This document shows, piece after piece, positions 32,450 to 45,586 of a DNA stretch of 47,893 bases. Origin of the DNA: Clostridia bacterium (GTDB lineage Bacteria; Bacillota; Clostridia; Lachnospirales; Lachnospiraceae); NCBI GenBank assembly GCA_029101305.1, contig JAQXQS010000115.1, positions 1 through 47,893 of the forward strand, written 5' to 3'. Each line of letters opens with the position of its first letter. The first letter of the stretch is position 1. The translations under genes and the position numbers were made by a program. A model generated the notes under the pieces. The model had not been told where the DNA came from, did not search any database, and was given only the letters and a program-made list of their open reading frames with translations.

Positions 32450-32515
32450 AGCTTCATTTCTCCTTTCTCTACTTTGAACTTTTTTGTAAATTCCAGAGCG
32501 TGTTTAAAAAAGTCT

Positions 32516-33583
32516 TTAAGGCCTTTTTGAGCCACAGCTCTCACAAAAATTTCCTAAATTTACCGCACCGCAAAAGGGACAATTCCAACTTTGCGTGACT
32601 GCACTATTCTGTACGGAAGTACTGGCCGGCATAGTGGCATTACCTGCAACACCTTCTGCCATTGCAGCTGCAAACGCCAGATTTTTAAGGTTTTCCAGAA
32701 CTTTTTCGTCCGAGAATGGTGCGCCGCAGTGCTGGCATGTAGTGGTGCCGTTGTTGGGCCAGTTACAGTTCGAGCATACCCATGTAGTAAGTTTCAGTGC
32801 ATCCGTAACCGCTTTTTGAGCAGCCGGCGAGGAAGAAAGTCCGGGAATAAGAGATGTAATTGAAAATGCCCCCTGCGTGGGCGCACTTGCCTGCTGTCCG
32901 TTCACCGCACCGGTACGGATATGATCAAGCAGATTGCAAATCTCATTACATGCTTCCCTAAAGCCCCGGTAGCAGGGATCATAAAGAGGCTGTTCATGGC
33001 GATCCTGAAAGAAGCTGTCGCCAGTCCATCTGATTGCTGTAGGCTGGAAAGGAATATGTACACGGCAGTCATTCAGCTTGAATTTCATTTCATTGAAATA
33101 CGGATTGTTTACTGAAATAATAATGTTAAAATCGTAGTCATACTCATATCGCGGTGGGTTATAGCTCCGGCGAACAATTTTTCCTTCGCTGTCCTTTGTT
33201 TCCACCTTTAGTTCGGTACGGCTTTCATCGATGTCCATGCGGCAGCCAGTGATGGTCGAGAAGTCTAACACATCGGAATTGTCATCTGCTGGATTTATCG
33301 CCCTTGTAACAGTAAACCATTGGTGGTTTTCGTCAAGAAGCAACTTTGTTCGCTCTCCGAAGGAGCGGGTAGTCCGGAATTTGGCAGCCCGTTCGCGATT
33401 CGCCTCGCGCCAGTCAAGCTGCTTCTTGATTTCCGACACCGTACTGGTACGTCGCTCATTGAACCAAGGCGAGAGCTTTTGGGCGCAGCTCTTGCAGAGA
33501 TTCCCATCTTCCAGTTTGCGATTTCCCAATAAACCGATCTTTTCACCACAAATATCACAATATTTCTTATCAAAAAATCCCAT
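32516..33583 (-). CDS. Zinc-ribbon protein with DUF4428-like N-terminus
   Basis: 355 aa. The N-terminal CDICGEK and CKSC pairs (residues 9-34) match a DUF4428 zinc finger. A middle domain of about 190 residues (70-225) has mixed beta strands. Two C-terminal zinc ribbons (CSNCNWPNNGTTTCQHCG at about 270; CPFCGAVNLGNFCESCG near the end) close it. Role unknown. AGGAGG precedes the ATG. Confidence 0.75.
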   Translation of the reverse strand: MGFFDKKYCDICGEKIGLLGNRKLEDGNLCKSCAQKLSPWFNERRTSTVSEIKKQLDWREANRERAAKFRTTRSFGERTKLLLDENHQWFTVTRAINPADDNSDVLDFSTITGCRMDIDESRTELKVETKDSEGKIVRRSYNPPRYEYDYDFNIIISVNNPYFNEMKFKLNDCRVHIPFQPTAIRWTGDSFFQDRHEQPLYDPCYRGFREACNEICNLLDHIRTGAVNGQQASAPTQGAFSITSLIPGLSSSPAAQKAVTDALKLTTWVCSNCNWPNNGTTTCQHCGAPFSDEKVLENLKNLAFAAAMAEGVAGNATMPASTSVQNSAVTQSWNCPFCGAVNLGNFCESCGSKRP

Positions 33584-33731
33584 AGAAGCATTCCTCCTTT
33601 TCTAGTTGCTTTACATCATTGCTATCAAAAATATCATTGCACTTCACCAAGCATGACAAATCCAACTGTCAAAATCCATTGTTTTCAGTTCTGAATACAC
33701 TTATTGTATTGCCGTCAATGTGGGTAGAACC

Positions 33732-34952
33732 TTAATATGGGTAGAACCTCAACGTTTCCGTTGAACCGGAAGTAAATGGCCAGAATGCATCACCTGACAC
33801 ATCTGTAATCGTCAACGTATTGTCTTCCAATACAACATATATTTCTCCAGAGCGTTGCCCATCCGGTGTATCAAGAAAAAACATATACGTTCCACAGGTA
33901 TATTCTGCAGGATTATAAGCAAAATACGTTCCTGACCAGGTGGAAACACCATTTGACCATGGATCATCGAAGGAAAAAACCAATTCCCCCTCCACTCCAC
34001 TTTCATCGGTCAAAAACTGAAGCGTATAAACCATATCTGTTCCATTTTCCTGCACAAGAACATCTGTCTCCCATTCTCCTTCCATTCCAAAAAGATACCC
34101 ATTCTCTCTATTTGGATACTCAGATCCTGTTTTCCCTTGCAAGGAAGGAAGCTCTTTCAGATAATCTCCATGTACATACCCACTCAGACCGTTGTATTCA
34201 ACATAATAGAATTTCTCTGAAGCTCTAAAGCAATTCCGTAAAATTGTTCCAAGCGGCACCCTGTCCACACATGTTGAATTCACATCAGGTTCCTGCCGCA
34301 GGGAAACCCATTCCTGACAATTTACTACCTGCATAACACTTAAGCCAAACTTTCCATTGGTATCTCCATTGGCTTGATTTCTATATGTCATATCATAAAC
34401 GTAAGGCTCTTCCCATGGCACATCTACACTTCCATCGTTGAGGTTGAGGCCTGGCTGCCATACCAGCACATTTCCCTGAGAATCCACAACTGTGATTTCG
34501 GTGTCTCTTATGATATCACTTGCGTTGCAGCGAAGAATAATCGGATCTCCATATTCACTCCGATACAATACATTTCCTGTTCTTCCAAGATAATCATCCG
34601 GTCCATCATAAACATATTCATTTACTGCCACAGATGCATTCTGATCAGAAGGGAAAATACAATAAAGCTCACTTCCATATTCAATTTCCACGATATGTTC
34701 ATCTGGAATGTCTGATAAAAACGGAAACTCATTCATATTACCTTCGTCATATAATACCTGTTTCAAACAGTCTCTGTCATTTGCACTTCCATCTATATAA
34801 CCAAGGAAAATTACACCGCAGATACTATTGGTGTCTAACAGTGTCTGCCTGTAAAGTCTTGTATAATTCCATACTGTGCTTTTTTCTGCCCGAACAGACA
34901 CAGCAGGAATACAAAGCAGCAATACCCACAACATGTAAAATGTCTTTTTCAT
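33732..34952 (-). CDS. Secreted protein with SH3b domain
   Basis: 406 aa. Signal peptide at 1-22 (VRA cleavage site). The centre holds an SH3b domain (about 212-270: EWVSLRQEPDVNSTC, VPLGTIL, YYVEYNGLSGYVHGDYL), which often binds peptidoglycan. The C-terminus (about 285-406) forms a beta-rich domain with GEWETDVLV like the repeats of the lipocalin-like protein at 31625. GGGAGG lies before the ATG. Its position beside the response regulator suggests control by that system. Confidence 0.75.
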   Translation of the reverse strand: MKKTFYMLWVLLLCIPAVSVRAEKSTVWNYTRLYRQTLLDTNSICGVIFLGYIDGSANDRDCLKQVLYDEGNMNEFPFLSDIPDEHIVEIEYGSELYCIFPSDQNASVAVNEYVYDGPDDYLGRTGNVLYRSEYGDPIILRCNASDIIRDTEITVVDSQGNVLVWQPGLNLNDGSVDVPWEEPYVYDMTYRNQANGDTNGKFGLSVMQVVNCQEWVSLRQEPDVNSTCVDRVPLGTILRNCFRASEKFYYVEYNGLSGYVHGDYLKELPSLQGKTGSEYPNRENGYLFGMEGEWETDVLVQENGTDMVYTLQFLTDESGVEGELVFSFDDPWSNGVSTWSGTYFAYNPAEYTCGTYMFFLDTPDGQRSGEIYVVLEDNTLTITDVSGDAFWPFTSGSTETLRFYPY

Positions 34953-35078
34953 AAATATTATCCTCCCTCCTTTTTTCAGATGTCTTCCGTTTTTATAAAA
35001 AACATAGCCCCCTGTTGTTGTGAAATATAATCTCAGTCTTTATATAATGTATTATATCGTTTTTATAAAATTCACACA

Positions 35079-35129
35079 CTCCCCATATGGGTGGGGTGGC
35101 ACAAATCACATAACATATTATATGGGGAG
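35079..35129. promoter_or_regulatory. Inverted repeat CTCCCCATAT
   Basis: CTCCCCATAT (35079-35088) and ATATGGGGAG (35120-35129) are exact complements 31 bp apart, about 130-180 bp upstream of the SH3b gene and beyond the end of the LuxR-type regulator. Likely an operator, possibly for that regulator. Confidence 0.45.
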
Positions 35130-35148
35130 AAATTTCCTATAATAACGC

Positions 35149-35190
35149 AAAAATCCTGCCGCCTTCTATGAAAGAAAGCGACAGGATTTT
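35149..35190 (-). terminator. Terminator of the regulator operon
   Basis: AAAATCCTGCCGC pairs with GCGACAGGATTTT (one G-U), flanked by A and T runs; it lies directly after the response regulator stop. Confidence 0.85.
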
Positions 35191-35814
35191 CTAAAACCCA
35201 TTGATGATTAAATTTTTCTTTGTAACTGCTACTGCCAGTTTTGTTTTTGAGTCAAAATTCGTTTTCTGAAGCATATTTTTGATATGCCATTTTACTGTTT
35301 CCGGCGATATAGACAAAGTCTCCGCGATTTTTTTATAGGACTGGCCTTCTACTACAAGCCGTAGAACCTCTATTTCTGCCGGGGTAAACTCACTGCTTTT
35401 TGCGGTTCCGATCAATACTTCCGGAAGAGCATCTGGATAAATACTTTCCCCCTGCATGGTACGGTCCATAACCTCCAGTAATTCTTCTTTGCTGGCATCC
35501 TTATACCAGAAGCTGTCTGCACCTGCTTTATGTGCCCGGTCAATAAAACTGCATTCTGCCATAGAAGTAACAATGATCACTTTTATCTGAGGCATCGCTG
35601 TTTTGATCTTCTGGGCAGCAATCAGGCCGCTTGCATCGTTTTCTGTGCAGACATCCATCAGAACAAGATCACATCCACTTTGGCGACATATGGTTTCCGC
35701 CATAGCCGCATTCGTGATAGAACCTGCCAGAGAATATCTGCCGCTTGACTGGATATAGTTTTCCATATCCTCACGCGCCATTCGTTGGTCTTCCACAATA
35801 AGTACACTGATCAT
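35191..35814 (-). CDS. NarL/LuxR-type response regulator
   Basis: 207 aa. Receiver with Asp54 (LVLMDVC) as phospho-acceptor, then a LuxR helix-turn-helix (about 140-200: FTPAEIEVLRLVVEGQSYKK, SISPETVKWHIKNML). GGAGG is present, and the ATGA start overlaps the kinase stop, so the two are coupled. It is probably the output of the sensor genes upstream and may act on the CTCCCCATAT or GGAACAAAAT sites; neither link is shown. Confidence 0.92.
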   Translation of the reverse strand: MISVLIVEDQRMAREDMENYIQSSGRYSLAGSITNAAMAETICRQSGCDLVLMDVCTENDASGLIAAQKIKTAMPQIKVIIVTSMAECSFIDRAHKAGADSFWYKDASKEELLEVMDRTMQGESIYPDALPEVLIGTAKSSEFTPAEIEVLRLVVEGQSYKKIAETLSISPETVKWHIKNMLQKTNFDSKTKLAVAVTKKNLIINGF

Positions 35815-37090
35815 ATATATTCCTCCATTTTGGGGATATTAATTATCAGGGAATATTCCGGAAAAGAACGGATACTGACAGTACCATTACAATTTTCCAC
35901 CTTTTCTCGTATTGCAGACAGACCGCCTCCTTCCTCAATCTCCCTGTCCGGCTTCCTGCCATTATTTGTAATCACAAGCATCCACTCATGAATCCCGCTG
36001 CTTATATTTACATAAAGTTCCGTAGCCCCGGCATGGCGTACACTATTTGAAATCGCCTCTAAAAGAATCACATCCAGTAGTTTGGCTGCTTCCGGATCAT
36101 CCAGGATTTTTCCAATATAAAGGACTTTTAATCCAAGAGCATCGGCCCTTTCCTGCACCATCTGATGAAGGGTCTCTGCCGTAGGTTCATTATCTTTTCT
36201 TAATAAGCTTAAAATCCTGTTCCATTGTGAAAGAAACGCCTCTCTGTTATCTTCAGAATCCTGCAGCAGCATACGATGTGCAGCCAGTACACTGTATCCA
36301 AGATCATCATGCACTCGCATTTTCATGGCCAGAGTCTCTTCCTCCCTGGTCAGTATCACAATATTTTTGGAAAGCTCTTTCATTGCCGCAGACATTTCCA
36401 GAAGCTTCCTGTTTTCTTTTTCCAGAAGCTGTTTGTTATGATATAATTCAGATACTACTGAAATCAGAAATTGCAGGAACCGTTCCCCATTTTCTGCAAT
36501 TATGTAATCTTCTGAAAATTTCCATACACTTCCATCTGAAAAACAATATGCCTGAAAATCAGGATCGTAAGACACACGGTTTTTAAGCGGATGTTCCAAT
36601 GTTTCCCGAAGCTCTGTTTCACTTTGAATATCCCGGTCTGTCAAGTATCTGCTGATTCTGTGCATTTGTCGATTGAGCAGTACAGGCATCCCCTGTTCAT
36701 CAAAGAATCCCACTCCACTTGGTAAGTTGTCCAGGCTTTCCTGAATCGCATTTACCTGTAAATGATTTTTCCCTTGTCTGAGAGCCACCATGATCTGTAT
36801 TACGGCATATGCGCCCCCGCAAATTCCAGAGAAAACATAGACAATATAAGGAATTTTAAAAAGCATAAATGAGTTTTTCTCCCAATCATAGAGAAGATAT
36901 CTCACGCGAAGACATGAAGCTGTGAAAAAAGTCCCAGTGAACAATGCAATATTTATTATGATACGCTTCCATGTCTGTTTCCAGATAATTTCATATATGA
37001 TCAATAGAAAATATGCCAAAGACGTCATCAGAAAAAAACAACCAAAATCATTTGAAATTCCAATGAATTATTTCCAAAAGATTTCATCAT
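35811..37090 (-). pseudogene. Sensor histidine kinase, 5' frameshift
   Basis: The intact frame gives 405 aa from 37028: two or three membrane helices, a PAS-like middle, a HisKA_3-like box MRVHDDLGYSVLAAHRM and a GHKL ATPase (EAISNSVRHAG, then GGGLSAIREKV). The likely true start is ATG 37090, with AAAGGAGG upstream and a 4-bp overlap with the 7TM gene. Its first 20 codons reach the long protein only if one base is added to A7 at 37032-37038. The protein would then be about 425 aa. Confidence 0.75.
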
Positions 37091-38786
37091 CTGTTTTCCC
37101 CTCCTTTTACAGAGAAAGAAAGTAACCATGTGTCATCAAAATCCTGTTCCGCTTCTGCATCATAGCGTTCGGCAATTTTCGTCAGGTTCGCTTCACATTC
37201 TGCACTTATGGATAACACCAGCTTTTCATTTTCCTGCTTCAGTGTTACAAAAAGTGCGGATAAACTCTCCAGTGATTCTTCAATGACTGCTTCAGAAAAA
37301 TCATAGATTCGCATCGCAGTTTCACTTGAGATTATTTTCCCAGTCATTTGCGATAAAGAACAGGGATTATTTTCCCCTATCATAAGAAAGCCTGCAGTTA
37401 CACCACTCAATTCCAGATTTCTTATGGTTTCCTGAAAACATAATTCCAGTTCTCTTATCGGTATGAAATAATTGTGTTCTGCAATAAATATAAGATTGCT
37501 GCGCCTTTTAATATATGCGCCGATGACAACAACCTTTCCCAGTATCTTTTTTCTTTGCTGCGCATTTTCTGCCAGAGAATACTCATCGATCAAGCTGCTC
37601 AGAAGAATAATCTGCCTGGAAGTCTGCTTCTGCATTTTATCATAGAGCTGATTCTTTACAGACAGCTTTGCCATCTGTTTTTTTGCTTTCAGATTTTCTT
37701 CTTCTATCACATTTGCATCTTTTAATTCTTCTTTCATGTCAGATAATTCTTGTAATATATCTTGCAGCTCTGACAGATTTTCTTTCCACAGCACATAACC
37801 GCCACAGATCGGTGCTCCTGATAAGCGGATTCCATTTTCCATCATCACTGGACTCTCCAGTGCACGATGTATGGTTTCTGCTTTGATTTCTCCGGAATTT
37901 TTTGAACGATAGCATACATTCCCGTCTGTGTCTATAATCTGTGCTGCAATAGCAGAGGATTCGAACAATTGTGTATATCCTGTATTGGAGGGAATCAGGT
38001 CGCACTGAATATAACTCTCGATAATCACGGCAAACAGAAGGCAGAAAGCAGCCGTCATATCCCTTGTAAGCATTTTCCAAAAAGGAGATCCAGACAATAA
38101 GTGATCGCATATAATACGGCCAGTCCATACGCACTGAAGGGAAATAAGAGCAGCTTTTTATTCCTGATTACCCGGCATTTAAACAAAATTATACAAACAG
38201 CCGCCAATGTGCACCCGATATCCCATGCAACAATCAAATAATATACTGGCCCATATCTGTATACGCCCACTTCATAAGACGCTACTTCTCCCAGTCTTCC
38301 ATCTGGGAAAGAGAACACAAGTTGATGCAGATCGTTTGTTAATACCAGTGCTATCAGAATCAGCGCAACAAGAAACAGCAAGTATGTCCACCGTGGAAGC
38401 TGGTAATTTTCAGGTTGCCGCATGTGAAATGCCAGATAGAGACTGGCGGTTGGAATCATCAGCATTGGAATATAGTAGAGATACCAGCAATAGCGTAAGG
38501 CTGTCGGCAATTCATATGGCATCTGGTATTTGCACATGCGGATGAACATCCAGAAAAGCATCAGAGCTGCAATTAAGATCAGACAACGGCGTGTATTTGT
38601 TTGCATAATCCTCTTCTGAAAGGAAAATGCCCAGGCCGAATACAGTCCTATATAAATAAAAGGTCTTAAGAAGCAGCACATGGCATCAAGGTAAGGATTT
38701 GTAAAAGTCAAATTCCGAATTGCGATTGCGGTAATTACAGATAAAATTACCGCACTTCCCACGCATAATGTAGATTTCTTTTGCAC
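37087..38786 (-). pseudogene. 7TM-domain sensor kinase-like protein, frameshifted
   Basis: GTG 38786 with GGAGG starts a histidine-kinase-type 7TM domain (about 230 residues). The frame ends early at 38055, and the rest is open in a second frame to 37087. Adding one base to A5 at 38079-38083 joins LDLLF to WKMLTRDMTAAF and gives a protein of about 565 aa. The C-terminal half has GAYIKRRSNLIFI and a degenerate ATPase region without clear N- and G-boxes or a canonical phospho-His, so it may sense rather than phosphorylate. Confidence 0.75.
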
Positions 38787-38802
38787 GGTTCCCCTCCACT
38801 TT

Positions 38803-38861
38803 AAAGTCTTTTTGTAACAGCCTGTACTCTTAAGCTTTCAGCGTCTTTTTCTGTCCATTTT
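38803..38861 (-). pseudogene. GNAT scar: both ends, no middle
   Basis: 38803-38830 resembles 19806-19834 (3' end of the RimL-type GNAT), and 38838-38861 equals 20296-20319 (near its 5' end). The order and strand are the same as in the intact gene; about 460 bp are missing. It lies between the 7TM and ABC genes. Confidence 0.65.
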
Positions 38862-41045
38862 TCAGTTATCCAGCTGTTGCCTTTCTACCAGTTCTGCGAA
38901 AAATCCATTTTGGGCGATCAATTCCTCATAGTTTCCATCTTCTATGATTTTTCCATGATCAAATACAAGAATCCGGTCACATTGTTTAATTGTTGACAGG
39001 CGATGGGCGATGACGATTCTTGTACATTTAAGCCCGTCAAGGGATTCTGAAACTTTTTTCTGCGTCAGATTATCAAGTGCACTGGTAGCTTCGTCAAACA
39101 TAAGGATTTTAGGCTTCGGGGCTATGGCCCGGGCAATCATAAGCCTTTGCTTCTGCCCTCCGGAGATACCGCCGGCTCCCTCTGCGATCATGGTGTGCAT
39201 TCCCATAGGCATTCTCTGGATATCTTCTGCAATTCCTGCAAGGCGTGCAGCCTCCCAGGCATCCTCCATTGTAAGCCATGGAGCTGAAATTATAATATTC
39301 GAGTAAATGTCACCGGTAAAAAGCTTTCCATTCTGCATAACTACGCCAATTCTGCGTCTGAGGGATTTCAGATCAATCTGCTGAAGATCTTTTCCATCAT
39401 AGTAGATTGCACCCTTCTGTGGTTTTTCGAAGCCAAGAAGCAGTCTCATAAGTGTAGATTTTCCACAGCCTGTCTTTCCTACGATCGCCACATACTGCCC
39501 CGGACGGATTTTTAAAGACATATCGTCTATTACAGGCGGCATATCATCCCTGTATCCGAAAGAAACATTATTTAACTCAATTGCACCAGACACTCTGGTA
39601 AGTACCTGCTTTCCTTCAGACACCTCCGGAACAGTTTCGAAAATAGGCTTAACAATTTCAAGAGTAGGCATTATCTTAGCCGTTGTCAGTGTGATTCCTG
39701 CAAGTGACATAAATGCACCTGACAACATACCATAAGCAGTGTTAAAAGCATAATAATCTGCAACTGAAACATTTGATTTTATAGCTGAATAATATATTAC
39801 TATAGTACCTGCAAGAGAGATACCGGTACTGATCACCGTATTAATTTTTAGAAATAACGGAGGATTATATAGCAGTTTCGCCTCTTTTGCATATAAATTT
39901 CCCCATTTTGCAAATACTCTTTTTTCTGCACCTGAAAGCTTGATTTTCTGCACACCGGTAATGAGTGCATAAGTCAATCCATTTTCTTTACCGGACAGTT
40001 CCATCTGTTCTTTACTGATGCTCATCTGGACAAAGGAAGAAATGATTGAAAAAAGCACAGTCACAATTATGATGATAAATGCAGGAACCACAAGTGCAGG
40101 AGCAAACCGGAAGATCTGCGAAATATAAACAAGGGAAAGCACAGAGGTAAGTCCTGTAGTGAAAACAGCACTCACCAGCATTTCACAAAGAACATTGGTC
40201 TGCCTCGCCCTGCTTGCTAATTCACCGGCACTGTATTCCCTGAAAAAATCCGCCGGAAGTGACAGGATTCTCATCATAGTTGCAGTTTCCACAAAAAGTC
40301 CTAATTTTGTATTGATTCTTGCTGTAACCAGCTTATTCACTGCAGTAAGTAAAATACTGCTCACTGATACACAGACTGAAAAAATAGTGATTGCAAATAA
40401 TAGTTTCCTGCTTCCGGAAGGAAGAACCTGTGAAAAAACAATGTTGTTAATCTTTGGAGTAAGCATCCCCACCAGAGTTACTGCCAGTGTAGCCATAACC
40501 ATCATTACATAATCCGACGTAGAGAGGTTTTCAAATATATATTTCACAAGTGTGGAAATTCCCATTTTTTTCAGTGGAAACGGTTTGTAAAAAGCAATTG
40601 CTTCTTTTTCAAACATTTCTTGATTTTTTGAATTGACTTTCCGAGGCTTTCCAGCCGTGTAATCAAAATATGTATAGCCGGAGATTCTGCCCGGAATCAG
40701 TGCCACAACCCTTCCTGATTCTTTCAAAACACCAAGCATCGCACCGGTTGCATCCCTATACCAGCCTTTTTCCAGATATACAGTTCTTCGCATAATCCCA
40801 TAAGGGCGCATCAGGTATTCAAGCTGTTCATTCATATCTGTGATGGAATCCGGCACCTCCCGGCTTTTTACATGATAAAATTTCATAATTTCATCAATTG
40901 CATCTTTCGTTACAACACGGTCATCCTTAAGCGCGGCAGAAACCCTTTTGCCCATAACCGCACCCGCCATATTTACAAACGAATCTGCAAAAGCATTATC
41001 ATCATTTTCTTTTCTTAGTTTTATCTGTTCATCAAACCAGCCCAA
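38862..41045 (-). CDS. NHLP-type peptide export ABC protein, subunit 2
   Basis: 727 aa. The N-terminal 165 residues contain the family-specific region with GRISGYTYFDYTAGKPRKV and FYKPFP. Six membrane helices follow (about 180-460), then an ATPase with Walker A GKTGCGKSTL, signature ISGGQKQRL, Walker B ILMFDEATSALD and His switch IVIAHRLST. Layout matches TIGR03797. It has no peptidase domain. The start is TTG at 41045, seven bases after AGGAGG; no ATG fits better. It begins 11 bp after subunit 1. Confidence 0.9.
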   Translation of the reverse strand: MGWFDEQIKLRKENDDNAFADSFVNMAGAVMGKRVSAALKDDRVVTKDAIDEIMKFYHVKSREVPDSITDMNEQLEYLMRPYGIMRRTVYLEKGWYRDATGAMLGVLKESGRVVALIPGRISGYTYFDYTAGKPRKVNSKNQEMFEKEAIAFYKPFPLKKMGISTLVKYIFENLSTSDYVMMVMATLAVTLVGMLTPKINNIVFSQVLPSGSRKLLFAITIFSVCVSVSSILLTAVNKLVTARINTKLGLFVETATMMRILSLPADFFREYSAGELASRARQTNVLCEMLVSAVFTTGLTSVLSLVYISQIFRFAPALVVPAFIIIIVTVLFSIISSFVQMSISKEQMELSGKENGLTYALITGVQKIKLSGAEKRVFAKWGNLYAKEAKLLYNPPLFLKINTVISTGISLAGTIVIYYSAIKSNVSVADYYAFNTAYGMLSGAFMSLAGITLTTAKIMPTLEIVKPIFETVPEVSEGKQVLTRVSGAIELNNVSFGYRDDMPPVIDDMSLKIRPGQYVAIVGKTGCGKSTLMRLLLGFEKPQKGAIYYDGKDLQQIDLKSLRRRIGVVMQNGKLFTGDIYSNIIISAPWLTMEDAWEAARLAGIAEDIQRMPMGMHTMIAEGAGGISGGQKQRLMIARAIAPKPKILMFDEATSALDNLTQKKVSESLDGLKCTRIVIAHRLSTIKQCDRILVFDHGKIIEDGNYEELIAQNGFFAELVERQQLDN

Positions 41046-41056
41046 TGCTCTGCCTC

Positions 41057-43234
41057 CTATTCGTTTGATACCAGTCTCGTATACATTCCACCAAGCTTTA
41101 TCAGCTCATCATGTGTACCACGCTCTACAACTTTTCCTCTGTCCAGCACAATGATCTCGTCACAATCACGGATTGTGGAAAGTCTGTGTGCCACAACAAT
41201 GCAGGTGACTCCTCTGTCTTTTATGGATTTTACTACATCATATTCGGTTTTTGCATCCAGAGCACTGGTAGCTTCATCCAAAATAATGATCGTCGGATCC
41301 TGGGCAAGCGCTCTTGCAATCTCCAGCCTTTGGCGCTGGCCTCCGGAAAAATCTTTCCCGCCTTCTTTGAGTCTGTACTGATAACCGCCGTCACGATGCA
41401 TGATGTCTTCATGAAGCTGGGCATCTCTTGCAGCCAGGATCATTTCAAAATCTTCTATTGAACTGTCCCACATTTTGATATTGTTGGCTATGGTATCCTC
41501 AAACAGAGTGATCTCCTGATCCACAACAGCAAGGGAACCGGTAAATACGCTTTTGTTTATCTCTGACATCTTTTTGCCGTCAAAAAGGATCTCGCCGCTC
41601 CATGGCTTATATAGTCCGCTGATCAGCTTTGACAGTGTAGATTTCCCACATCCTGATGCTCCTACAAAGGCAACTCTGCTTCCTGGTTTCAGTGAAAGAT
41701 TAAAATCCTCGATCAGGGGCTCGGACAATCTGGAGTATCCAAACGTTATGTGTCTCAGTTCAGTAGAACCAGACAGTTTTTTATATTCTTCATTCTCTGT
41801 GTCCTCATGAAATACTGATTCACAGGGATAATTCATCACGTCTTCCACACGTTCCATTTCAGTACGCATTTCCTGCAATGTCTGTCCCGCCGATATCAAT
41901 GTGTTTGCCGGAGTCATAAATGATGTTAAGAAGCTCTGAAACGCCATGATCATACCCACTGTAAACTGTCCCTGCATAGCGAGAAATACACCTGTCATCA
42001 ATACCAGCGTACTACATAGGGAATTACACAGCTGGGGTAAAATGCCAAGCATCTGATTCAGTTTTGCGAATTTCACCCGCCCGGTATTTACACCTGCCTG
42101 ATATCCGGCCCACTTCTCAAAAAATCCATTTTCTGAACCACTTGCTTTTATCGTTTCGATCATCTCAATTCCCGAAACAGTAGTTCCTGCAAGCTTACCC
42201 GCATTCTGCATCTGCATACGGGAAATATTAATTCTCTTTCTGGAAATAATATTTGAAAATATAAGGTTTAAAATGATAGAACCTATACCCATTATGGTAA
42301 GAATAACGCTGTATCTTAACATTACCACAAGATAAAAAACCATCATTACTGTATTCAACGCCAGAGGTGCAAACGTATTTACAAAATCAGATGATATGGT
42401 TGCGTTGGTATTTTTCCGCAGCTGGATATCCCCAGCCATACGCTGTGAAAAAAAATCCATAGGCATATTGAATACTTTCCACATAAAAGTAGTGCTTCCT
42501 ACCAGATCCAGCTTTCCATTGATTTTTAAAGAATAGACTACCTGAATCCACATGACGATGATCTGAAGCACACAAAGACAAGATAAGCCTGTCAGAAACG
42601 GAACCACCCATCCAGGATTTACTCCGGTTAACAATCTGTCCAGAAAAATTCTGGAAAATGCCGGATTGATGATTCCAATTAAAGCTGATATAAGAGTGGT
42701 CAGTACTACAAAAGCAATGGCTGTACCAGTTCCTTTCAGACGTTTCCTGGCATAGGAAAGCATGGAAGTACGGCTGCCGCCTGGTTCAAAGCTCTCTCCT
42801 GGTTCAAACATCAGGCAGATACCGGTAAACGACTGGTCGAATATGTCCATTGAAACAGAATACGCTCCTTTTGCCGGATCATTTATGTATGCTTTATTGC
42901 CCTTAAATCCATCTAAGACAACAAAATGGTTAAAATTCCAATGAATGATACAGGGAAATTTCCCTTCTTTTTTCAAAACATCTGGTTCATAACGGTATCC
43001 CTTTGCAATGAGACCATAATTCCTTGCCGCCCGCAAAATATTTTTGGCGCTGGAACCATCCCGGGACACTCCGCAATCATGTCTCACCTGCTCAAGGGGA
43101 AGCCATTTTCCATAATATGCAAGGATCATTGCCAGACTGGCTGCACCGCATTCCAAAGCTTCCATCTGCATAACCACCGGTACTTTTGCTGCACCTTTGG
43201 TGACAGGATGTTTTATATTACTTTTCCGACTCAT
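41057..43234 (-). CDS. NHLP-type export ABC protein with C39 peptidase, subunit 1
   Basis: 725 aa. The C39 peptidase domain (about 15-145) has ALECGAASLAMILAYYG (catalytic Cys), FNHFVVLDGF (His) and NDPAKG (Asp), so leader cleavage after a Gly-Gly-type site is expected. The permease covers about 165-450. The ATPase has GASGCGKSTL, FSGGQRQRLEIARAL and IIILDEATSALD. Matches TIGR03796. ATG 43234 follows GAGGTG, eight to ten bases after the HlyD-like stop. Confidence 0.93.
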   Translation of the reverse strand: MSRKSNIKHPVTKGAAKVPVVMQMEALECGAASLAMILAYYGKWLPLEQVRHDCGVSRDGSSAKNILRAARNYGLIAKGYRYEPDVLKKEGKFPCIIHWNFNHFVVLDGFKGNKAYINDPAKGAYSVSMDIFDQSFTGICLMFEPGESFEPGGSRTSMLSYARKRLKGTGTAIAFVVLTTLISALIGIINPAFSRIFLDRLLTGVNPGWVVPFLTGLSCLCVLQIIVMWIQVVYSLKINGKLDLVGSTTFMWKVFNMPMDFFSQRMAGDIQLRKNTNATISSDFVNTFAPLALNTVMMVFYLVVMLRYSVILTIMGIGSIILNLIFSNIISRKRINISRMQMQNAGKLAGTTVSGIEMIETIKASGSENGFFEKWAGYQAGVNTGRVKFAKLNQMLGILPQLCNSLCSTLVLMTGVFLAMQGQFTVGMIMAFQSFLTSFMTPANTLISAGQTLQEMRTEMERVEDVMNYPCESVFHEDTENEEYKKLSGSTELRHITFGYSRLSEPLIEDFNLSLKPGSRVAFVGASGCGKSTLSKLISGLYKPWSGEILFDGKKMSEINKSVFTGSLAVVDQEITLFEDTIANNIKMWDSSIEDFEMILAARDAQLHEDIMHRDGGYQYRLKEGGKDFSGGQRQRLEIARALAQDPTIIILDEATSALDAKTEYDVVKSIKDRGVTCIVVAHRLSTIRDCDEIIVLDRGKVVERGTHDELIKLGGMYTRLVSNE

Positions 43235-43244
43235 AGATGTCACC

Positions 43245-43709
43245 TCAATTCAGCACAAAGTACATGGGAGATACTCTCTCCGTAATAAAATCAGCCTTAT
43301 AAATACCAGCATCCAGTTCCGCGTTTACGGTAACAGCATATATTTTCTCGGCTTCTGAAAAATGTCCGGCTTCCTGCAACGTATTATCTGTGATTCTTTC
43401 CGGAAAATCAGAGATTCCAATGGTTTTATATTCTGCACCATTAATAGAAACTGGTGTTCCTATCTCGATTCCGGAAATGTCTGCCTCCTTTATATAACAG
43501 ACAGCCTTTCCGTTCGCAACCCTGCAAACAGTCTCTACCTTTGTGTCAAGATGTCCAAAGACTCCCCATACACATACTCCGGATAAAAGAAAAATGACTG
43601 ACAGCAGGATTAACCATACTCCTGGATTCGCTACATGAATATAATCATTTAACTGATCAGGAGATGAGATCCTGTTAATGCTTTTTTCTCTGAATAGTTT
43701 TTTCTCCAT
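43245..43709 (-). CDS. Short HlyD-like NHLM secretion adaptor
   Basis: 154 aa. FREKSINRISSPDQLNDYI and a membrane helix at about 32-52 match the start of NHLM bacteriocin secretion proteins (TIGR03794). A biotinyl-lipoyl-like beta domain follows. The long coiled coil of full HlyD proteins is absent, as in other small versions. ATG 43709 follows GAAAGGAG. It is the first gene of the export operon; the upstream in-frame stretch has no start signal. Confidence 0.8.
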   Translation of the reverse strand: MEKKLFREKSINRISSPDQLNDYIHVANPGVWLILLSVIFLLSGVCVWGVFGHLDTKVETVCRVANGKAVCYIKEADISGIEIGTPVSINGAEYKTIGISDFPERITDNTLQEAGHFSEAEKIYAVTVNAELDAGIYKADFITERVSPMYFVLN

Positions 43710-43811
43710 ATTTTCATCTCCTTTCAATTGTGGTAATCCAAAACAATTCTGCATATATTCTACAAATTTCGTTAATAAATCATAGCATAAAGAAAACTGC
43801 ATTCTGATTCC

Positions 43812-43951
43812 AGGGAACAAAATGTGAGTATAGGGAACGAAATCTATTTCTGCTTTTATATCTCGAGCTCTTGTCTAAAATGTTTGTTGACAAGAAATAT
43901 CAACAAAAGTTATAATTGAAAAAATTCTGCACTACACCAGTATTTTGTTCC
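43812..43951. promoter_or_regulatory. Three GGAACAAAAT-like boxes between divergent genes
   Basis: AGGGAACAAAAT (43812) and AGGGAACGAAAT (43832) are direct repeats exactly 20 bp apart. The complement ATTTTGTTCC lies at 43942-43951. The 284-bp gap between the export operon and the symporter holds no other recognised gene. A 20-bp period suits two dimers on one DNA face. Confidence 0.5.
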
Positions 43952-43993
43952 GAAAAAAATAGATACGATCATAAACAGATAAAGGAGCCAAAA

Positions 43994-45586
43994 ATGCAAA
44001 AGATAATGGAAAAATTTCTTCTTCATGCAGGTGAGATTGACCGTTTCAGCCAATTAACAAATGATTTATTACAGCAAATGAAGATTAATCCCAAAGATAT
44101 TTTACGTTTTCGATTAAGTATCGAAAATGTTATGGAGATTTGGATGAATGAACTTGGAGAAAACACCAATTGTACATTTGCCAGCGGTTCCAGGTTTGGC
44201 AGAACATATATTATCTTATCCGCAGAAGGAAGAATGGTAAATCCCAATGAATATCAGGATGAGTTAACAACCATGATCAGTAATGGAAATTCTTTTCTGG
44301 CAACTCTGGGTCTGTTTCTGGAATACCATTATGAAGATGGCAAAAATTTCCTGAAACTGACTTTGCCAAAGAAACAATCCGGACAGTTAACTCCAGTTAT
44401 CCTGGGCATGCTTCTTGGCATCATAAGTGGAGCTGTTCTGACATTTGGACTGCCTGATGTGGGAAACGTGATACAGACATGGATTATTTCGCCAATATTT
44501 GATACTTTCATGAATCTTTTAACCCTTATTGCAGGTCCAATGATTTTTCTGGCTGTGTATTGCGGAATATATGAAATGGGGGATGCTGCGACCTTTGGAA
44601 AAATCGGAAAAAGCCTGATCATCCGTTTCTTATTGTTCGCTTTTCTCGTTTTAGCTGCAGCAGGTCTGCTGGTTTCCTGGCTTTTTATTTCTTCCTCTGG
44701 AAAAAATAATATTTCAGGAAATTCTATTATGGAGCTTTACAAAATGGTACTTAACATTATTCCTGGTGATATTATTTCTCCATTTCAGACTGGAAATGCA
44801 ATGCAGATTATTTTTCTTGCATGTGTATGTGGTACTGGTACATTGGTGTTGGGAGATTCCGTATCAGGAATATCTAAAATAATCTCCCAGATAAATACAT
44901 TAATACAATTACTAATGACTTATATTGGCAGGCTTATTCCAGTGTTTGTGTTTGTCTGCATAATGAATCTGTTTTTATCAGGCAGCCTGAATAATATATC
45001 CGGACTTATAAAACAGATTATCATTGTTGCAGCTGTTACTTGTATAACTCTTGTATTTTATATTGGCCTGGTCTGCTGGAAGTGCCGCGTAAAGCCGGCA
45101 ATTTTAATTTCCAAATTACTTCCCACTTTTTTAATAGCACTTTCCACAGCTTCTTCGTCCGCAGCTTTCGGAACGAATATAGAAAGTTGTAAAAAGATGG
45201 GTATAGATACAAAACTAATTAATTTTGGTGTATCTATAGGACAGGTTATCTTTATGCCAGCTTCTGCTATTATGTATTTTATTTCATCATTATGTATTGG
45301 GCAGAGTTATGGAATTGAAATCACGGTCATCTGGATCATAACATCAATTTTAACCAGTACGATCCTGGCACTGGCAACCCCTCCAATTCCAGGTGGAGCT
45401 TTATCCTGTTATACAATTTTATTTACCCAATTGGGAATTCCAACTGCAGGAATTGCATTAGCAATCAGTATAGATTTACTTATGGATTCATTTTTAACAG
45501 CCAGCAATCTTGCATACCTGCAGGCAGAGCTTGTGCTTTCAGCACAGAAATTAAATTTACTAAATGAAACAAGATTACAAAAATGA
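43994..45586 (+). CDS. Dicarboxylate/amino-acid:cation symporter with N-terminal ATPase-like domain
   Basis: 530 aa. Residues 1-125 form a soluble domain; DILRFRLSIENVMEIWMNEL resembles the N-box helix of GHKL/RsbW-type ATPases, but G-boxes are not clear. Residues 130-525 are a DAACS symporter with about eight to ten membrane segments, STASSSAAFGTNIESC as the serine-rich re-entrant loop and a later PPIPGGALSCYTILF. Substrate: probably an acidic amino acid or dicarboxylate with Na+ or H+. ATG 43994 follows AAAGGAG; the frame upstream is non-family. Confidence 0.8.
   Translation: MQKIMEKFLLHAGEIDRFSQLTNDLLQQMKINPKDILRFRLSIENVMEIWMNELGENTNCTFASGSRFGRTYIILSAEGRMVNPNEYQDELTTMISNGNSFLATLGLFLEYHYEDGKNFLKLTLPKKQSGQLTPVILGMLLGIISGAVLTFGLPDVGNVIQTWIISPIFDTFMNLLTLIAGPMIFLAVYCGIYEMGDAATFGKIGKSLIIRFLLFAFLVLAAAGLLVSWLFISSSGKNNISGNSIMELYKMVLNIIPGDIISPFQTGNAMQIIFLACVCGTGTLVLGDSVSGISKIISQINTLIQLLMTYIGRLIPVFVFVCIMNLFLSGSLNNISGLIKQIIIVAAVTCITLVFYIGLVCWKCRVKPAILISKLLPTFLIALSTASSSAAFGTNIESCKKMGIDTKLINFGVSIGQVIFMPASAIMYFISSLCIGQSYGIEITVIWIITSILTSTILALATPPIPGGALSCYTILFTQLGIPTAGIALAISIDLLMDSFLTASNLAYLQAELVLSAQKLNLLNETRLQK

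Follow-up and report, generated by a model that had tools for sequence, protein, structure and literature searches.

We analysed a stretch of 47,893 nucleotides from a Clostridia bacterium of the Lachnospiraceae (contig JAQXQS010000115.1 of assembly GCA_029101305.1; hereafter the window), which carries a peptide exporter of the ATP-binding cassette (ABC) type with a C39 peptidase domain. We consider it likely that this exporter carries a 91-aa Nif11-like precursor encoded on another contig of the host assembly (C89), next to an enzyme in which a LanM dehydratase core is joined to a GNAT-like half. This fusion, together with a core peptide that has Lys at position 1, is the most interesting new item of the analysis. 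An exporter without a precursor would in this way become a precursor-enzyme-exporter set that is split across the genome, and gene-neighbourhood mining can miss such cargo encoded in trans. An earlier reading from the letters of the DNA alone (the sequence-only reading) had grouped the exporter with a neighbouring sensor block and a symporter into one system. What it observed is partly confirmed here, and its interpretation is partly supported. The exporter genes are the following.

41057-43243, minus strand: ABC1, a C39 peptidase/permease/ATPase protein (TIGR03796 and Peptidase_C39)
38862-41045, minus strand: ABC2, the peptidase-less partner permease/ATPase (TIGR03797)
43245-43709, minus strand: short HlyD-type adaptor, part of the exporter, 154 aa counted from the likely ATG (TIGR03794)

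ABC1 scores 954.5 bits against TIGR03796 (cut-off 853.3), with 122.9 bits for its Peptidase_C39 domain, and ABC2 scores 745.8 bits against TIGR03797 (cut-off 709.4), so that both proteins lie above the cut-offs of the NHLP/Nif11 families. Relatives of ABC1 in the PDB include 4ry2 (PCAT-type) and 6mpz (the LahT protease domain), and the latter matches the C39 domain of the window with 249 bits. The adaptor is built from a small domain and one hydrophobic segment; it reaches 31.4 bits against TIGR03794 (cut-off 156.2) and aligns only over the first 48 of 421 positions. All three genes had been recognised in the sequence-only reading, and they stand. According to the available part of Haft et al. 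2010 (PMC2887384), GG-leader precursors of NHLP/Nif11 export were tied to it by phylogenetic profiling, and some precursors do not adjoin their modification genes. The window shares with this system (TIGR03794/03796/03797) the C39 ABC exporter, the peptidase-less partner and, less clearly, an HlyD-like protein. It differs in its 154-aa adaptor far under the TIGR03794 cut-off, in that no precursor was found in cis, and in its unrelated sensor and symporter neighbours. Judged by these profile scores, the exporter of the window is a short-adaptor variant of the known NHLP/Nif11 system.

Such short adaptors are widespread among related exporters. We fetched 68 stretches (L033-L100; 40 from the family and 28 from the genus) centred on TIGR03797 or ABC1 matches, with L070, L071, L072 and L100 among them as weaker relatives; ten stretches fall short of 10 kb. 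Adaptor homologues occur in 55 of the 68 loci; nine have 283-656 aa and the other 46 fewer than 280, and many measure 70-170 aa when the ORF (open reading frame) starts are left uncorrected. The very short adaptor that is found in most of these loci would escape annotation that relies on the TIGR03794 cut-off. By the scans used, a leader-like ORF accompanies 18 of the 46 short-adaptor loci and none was seen in 28 (five of these on stretches below 10 kb). Thus, it is common rather than odd for such an exporter to have no visible precursor. At L036, L037, L055, L058, L067 and L076 the adaptor ORFs have only 70-80 aa and comprise the N-terminus, the hydrophobic segment and little more.

In the window itself, motif patterns and a leader HMM (hidden Markov model) built for this analysis gave no GG-leader ORF, and a precursor encoded there was rejected. 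A known RNA element was rejected as well, since no Rfam family matched the window at the gathering threshold. The sequence-only reading had seen neither precursor nor modifying enzymes; this holds for leader ORFs in the window, but both are present in the assembly. Its proposal that the substrate is encoded elsewhere gains support from two adjacent genes on C89 and from homologous genes that lie near an exporter in another genome (G313, see below).

C89:23498-23770, minus strand: Nif11-like GG-leader precursor, 91 aa (motif scans and TIGR03798)
C89, same strand, starting 4 bp downstream of the precursor: LanM dehydratase core and GNAT fusion, 750 aa

The genome-wide search for leader-bearing small ORFs that the sequence-only reading had called for covered the host assembly of 3.52 Mb (226 contigs, 93.7% complete). 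A strict motif (ELxx[VI]xGG) gave 12 matches and none with the reversed-pattern control, and a relaxed motif gave 66 against 45 in the control, so that most relaxed matches are due to chance. The two sets overlap and all matches were translated; 59 of the relaxed set are in frame and 7 contain a stop. Both scans together left a single leader-like ORF, the one on C89. Its leader ends with ELSDDELEQIAGG and its core is KMKPDDVLGSVITFGASCQKW, beginning KMKPDD. A TIGR03798 search of the host finds this site only, with an E-value of 5.5e-7 and 29.7-30.0 bits, slightly below the cut-off of 32.3; in the control genomes a match occurred in one of 14 rings and none was above the cut-off. A TIGR03793 leader of the NHLP type was rejected, as the only match (9.3 bits) was the GG end of the same ORF. 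A GG-leader precursor therefore exists in the host genome, not linked to the exporter in cis. As a lone query it is weak and has matches in 4 of 64 genus genomes, the host included. The assembly contains one Peptidase_C39 match, the domain within ABC1. It is the lack of any other C39 match in the host that singles out the pairing of exporter and precursor, and not orthology.

The enzyme next to the precursor matches DUF4135 with 200 bits (cut-off 29) and TIGR03897 with 191 bits (cut-off 304), and its PDB relatives are LicM2 and CylM. The LanM part extends to about residue 442, and the GNAT-like half (about 300 aa) comes next. The protein has no LanC cyclase match and thus lacks the pairing of dehydratase and LanC that marks class II lanthipeptide enzymes. 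Of the columns that are invariant in seven LanM-like sequences up to residue 432, the enzyme retains 25 of 32, among them D171, H173, K192, D263, H265, N268, D280, E282, R382 and T388. Catalytic roles are ascribed to the residues equivalent to those listed. We met no LanM-GNAT fusion in the literature searched and make no wider claim.

A search for related loci with the enzyme returned two loci (L167/L168), both from the metagenome-assembled genome G313 and both with fragmentary enzyme copies. It did not return L240, a 20-kb stretch of the same genome in which the homologous genes stand together. L240 begins within a LanM gene, of which 568 aa are visible, with LanC (PF05147, 116 bits), followed by four precursors and a GNAT of 300 aa; the other strand carries HATPase_c_2, SpoIIE, ABC2, ABC1 and a short adaptor. 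The leaders of the four precursors share 53-55 of 70 residues with that of the host, and ABC1 is 67% identical to the ABC1 of the window. Residues 437-750 of the host enzyme are 62.7% identical to the 300-aa GNAT, which there exceeds the Pfam GNAT cut-off. From this order of separate LanM, precursors and GNAT we infer that the host fusion may have arisen when a LanM front was joined to a GNAT through loss of the part between them. A further run of leader ORFs follows the short adaptor of L240: at L240:14919-19515 more than 10 leader ORFs lie beside the exporter, and most of them combine leaders that are closely alike (MENKEMQELLKKLKAAKSAEELVEMAKA...) with unrelated cores.

The two components also go together across the genus. 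ABC1 was found in 21 of 64 genomes (host included, E<=1e-150), and the seven genomes with TIGR03798 matches all fall within these 21 (hypergeometric 1.9e-4; 5 of 5 and 2.7e-3 without two fused leaders), figures that ignore kinship among the genomes. The leaders lie on the contig of the exporter in G288, G308, G286 and G259 and on other contigs in the host, G307 and G267. In G288 (33.4 bits) and G308 (27.5 bits, under the TIGR03798 cut-off) they adjoin such exporters; G286 and G259 have long adaptors.

A further hint to the nature of the product comes from the start of the core. Where a homologue of the host GNAT lies no more than 5 kb away, every core has Lys among its first two residues (11 of 11 leaders; position 1 in nine, position 2 in two), against 2 of 48 other leaders. 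The p-values are 2e-7 for position 1 and 3e-10 for positions 1-2, position 2 having been added after the data were seen. These values overstate the case because many rows are paralogues of one locus. Both sets of rows (11 and 48) were compiled manually. Left out were L065 (no residue after GG) and the truncated leader without GG of L168 at 8855, the AAG-like sites of L042, L049, L041, L039 at 4901, L060, L098, L239 at 14100, L240 at 12268 and L168 at 18824, the weak GG sites of L050, L067, L062 at 1419, L097 at 4800 and L094, the fused leaders of L146 and L150, and rows that are not leaders; none of the omitted GG rows with a readable core starts with Lys. The count supports a Lys-acylated product in relatives with intact genes, and for the host such a product would be the prediction.

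The closest known case is that of the nostolysamides, in which the tandem GNAT NpuN acylates Lys1 of NpuA, a precursor with a Nif11 leader (PMC13060382, in the part of the text available). With these nostolysamides/selidamides (NpuA/NpuM/NpuN/NpuT) the host shares the Nif11 leader, a core with Lys at the acylated position, a LanM-type enzyme, a C39 exporter and, less clearly, a GNAT. Unlike there, as far as the same text goes, the host has LanM core and GNAT in one protein without LanC, and its exporter is on another contig. Its length of about 300 aa, rather than a sequence comparison to NpuN, suggests that the host GNAT is of the tandem type too. In the lah cluster of Lachnospiraceae C6A11, the C39 exporter LahT cuts Nif11-type leaders of several precursors (PMC6363468, available part). 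The window exporter resembles LahT in its C39 domain, as the strong match to 6mpz indicates; in the lah cluster, however, nine precursors share the cluster with the transporter.

We therefore propose that the window holds the export half of a split pathway for a ribosomally synthesized and post-translationally modified peptide (RiPP). Through its Nif11-like leader, a peptide produced elsewhere would dock on ABC1, ABC2 and the minimal HlyD-type adaptor; the C39 domain of ABC1 would cut after Gly-Gly, and the core would be moved out of the cell. The cargo would most likely be the 91-aa precursor of C89 with its Lys-initiated core. The expected product would be a peptide acylated on Lys1, perhaps dehydrated too, and without rings from a LanC domain of this enzyme. 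On the best reading, this is a nostolysamide-like, Lys1-acylated RiPP encoded in trans, and its pathway is perhaps in decay, with cyclase lost, P-loop changed and sensor broken. The sequence shows what the exporter is, that the searches found one C39 peptidase and one leader ORF, how the enzyme is built, and that homologous parts stand together in G313; the pairing of exporter and precursor, the activity of the enzyme and the nature of the product are inferred from this.

Several findings weigh against this proposal. The host GNAT scores 19.5 bits in Pfam, below the cut-off of 20.7, and its P-loop reads RRKNYA where relatives have RQKGYA, RRMGYA or RRKGYA. The replacement of this Gly by Asn makes GNAT activity uncertain, the LanM part ends near residue 442, and the fusion enzyme may be dead. 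Exporter and precursor lie on different contigs, about 7 kb apart if the nearest ends abut and farther otherwise. The DNA motifs, which demand V or I ahead of xGG, would miss, for example, the leaders of G288 and G308, and at 93.7% completeness further precursors may be absent from the assembly. In the genus, 14 of the 21 exporter genomes gave no TIGR03798 match, and the leaders of G307 and G267 are fused to larger proteins. Finally, the GNAT-type cluster of G313 adjoins the 67% exporter, which has a 91-aa adaptor ORF; the G313 exporter nearest to that of the window (75%, L239) adjoins other leader types and an extracytoplasmic function (ECF) sigma factor, with no GNAT homologue. The partnership in G313 thus does not follow orthology.

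Of the alternatives, one overlaps with the proposal: the whole pathway might be a remnant in which the exporter is intact, enzyme and sensor have decayed, and nothing functional is exported. The absent cyclase, the altered P-loop, the frameshift in the sensor gene and the likewise fragmentary enzyme copies of L167/L168 speak for it. However, no frame is interrupted in the exporter genes, the precursor or the 750-aa fusion and most LanM-invariant columns are kept, and we regard a mere remnant as possible but doubtful. More unlikely still is a stand-alone export hub with a minimal adaptor that serves unlinked Nif11-leader cargo, in the host a linear Lys1-acylated RiPP from one dehydratase-GNAT fusion enzyme and in relatives larger leader-fused proteins. 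The fused leaders do suggest that the cargo of these exporters may be broader. In G307 and G267 the exporter is on other contigs. In one of these genomes a Nif11-like leader heads a protein of 237 aa that matches Hint weakly (L146:1036-1746, minus strand; PF01079 27.5 bits, cut-off 29.7), and in the other such a leader heads a protein, acidic and repetitive, whose open frame spans 469 codons (L150, reverse strand).

The same two proteins would fit an exporter whose cargo is a very small peptide or one with a diverged leader, missed here, or which has several cargoes encoded at unlinked sites, larger leader-fused proteins among them. AAG-type or non-Nif11 leaders at some related loci and the 28 short-adaptor loci lacking a leader ORF point the same way. 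However, strict scan, relaxed scan and TIGR03798 all converge on a single host leader ORF and none was found in the window, so that we judge this reading improbable.

The weakest alternative is the one in which the machine exports a signal that is read by its own sensor, as the sequence-only reading had offered among its options for the block next to the exporter.

38055-38786, minus strand: 5' piece of a seven-transmembrane (7TM) sensor gene (HisKA_7TM), frameshift-broken; neighbour
37087-38097, minus strand: 3' piece of the 7TM sensor gene, whose G278 homologue lies in one open frame; neighbour
35811-37028, minus strand: sensor histidine kinase (HATPase_c 24.6 bits, just under the Pfam cut-off of 26.4); neighbour
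35191-35814, minus strand: LuxR-type response regulator (Pfam); neighbour
35191-35149: terminator-like hairpin directly 3' of the LuxR-type regulator

Kinase and regulator are present as described earlier. The 7TM sensor is there as well, but its HisKA_7TM ORF is only the 5' piece of a frameshifted gene. The two ORFs overlap in different frames, the second one has no match in Pfam or NCBIfam, and its homologue in G278, a genome of the same genus, is 88% identical and lies within a single 566-aa ORF. The DNA alignment with G278 shows a one-base gap in the window between the two pieces; on this alignment they are one gene split by that gap, which may be a sequencing error. Co-transcription in the host is possible, since the genes share a strand, ABC2 and the 7TM ORF are separated by only 75 bp, and a hairpin follows the regulator. 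Unrelated GHKL or LytTR-type homologues occur at 4 and 7 of the 68 loci (E<=0.01, the threshold also of the radical SAM, ECF, HATPase_c_2, SpoIIE and STAS counts below, all of them without a background rate). However, G278 has the sensor block, about 89% identical at the DNA level, and lacks an ABC1 match at E<=1e-150. Its matches to the window (32510-33636, 33735-34853, 34864-34993 and 35010-38808; 80-90% identity) run past the 7TM start (38786) and break off before the stop codon of ABC2 (38862). At E<=1e-3 none of the 68 loci gave a homologue of any of the four sensor ORFs, and E<=1 added just two weak regulator matches. Together with the broken first sensor gene, this leaves a self-contained export-and-sense circuit very unlikely. 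The 7TM/kinase/LuxR block is probably an independent neighbour outside the exporter machine. Beside it, the window encodes an SH3 protein (33732-34952, 406 aa) whose counterpart in G278 has 1335 aa; the window copy matches both ends of this protein and lacks its middle.

On the other side of the exporter, the region contains a divergent symporter.

43994-45586, plus strand: SDF symporter with a diverged HATPase_c_2-like front domain; divergent neighbour
43887-43916, plus strand: promoter-like site TTGACA-18-TATAAT (12/12) ahead of the symporter, a consensus match only

Promoter-like sites are no more frequent in the region than by chance (30 found, shuffle mean 31.4). An ATPase-like front domain had been claimed for the symporter; the divergent SDF gene is confirmed and a comparison of two profiles likens its front to HATPase_c_2 (RsbW-like; probability 84.5, pairwise E 7e-6), but Pfam gives no HATPase match at E<=1. 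The symporter occurs in one of the 68 loci (L039) and in 5 of 64 genus genomes, namely the host, G264, G288, G256 and G274 (a 195-residue piece). In G264 it shares a contig with the exporter at a distance of 12.8 kb, and given this spacing a loose link between the two may exist. In G288 it is on a different contig from ABC1, and G256 and G274 have no ABC1 match at E<=1e-150. A conserved unit of eight genes, which the sequence-only reading had wanted compared across Lachnospiraceae, was rejected on these counts. The sensor block in G278 and the symporter in G256, G274 and G288 were found apart from the exporter, an outcome that the sequence-only reading had itself named as refuting, and the grouping of all three into one system is not supported.

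Other genes recur near the related exporters. Radical SAM homologues are found at 12 of the 68 loci. ECF sigma factor homologues are likewise found at 12, for example L039, L046, L049, L060 and L073, and also at L239:14100-14782; several of these loci encode a nearby protein of 60-96 aa with a leader-like LSxxELExVNAAG-type motif (two examined, no Pfam match). Homologues of HATPase_c_2, SpoIIE and STAS occur at 11, 10 and 18 of the 68 loci, and such partner-switching genes lie near the exporters of L034, L038, L053, L059, L074, L086, L088, L094, L240 and others. The diverged front domain of the symporter may belong to the same kind of partner-switching module.

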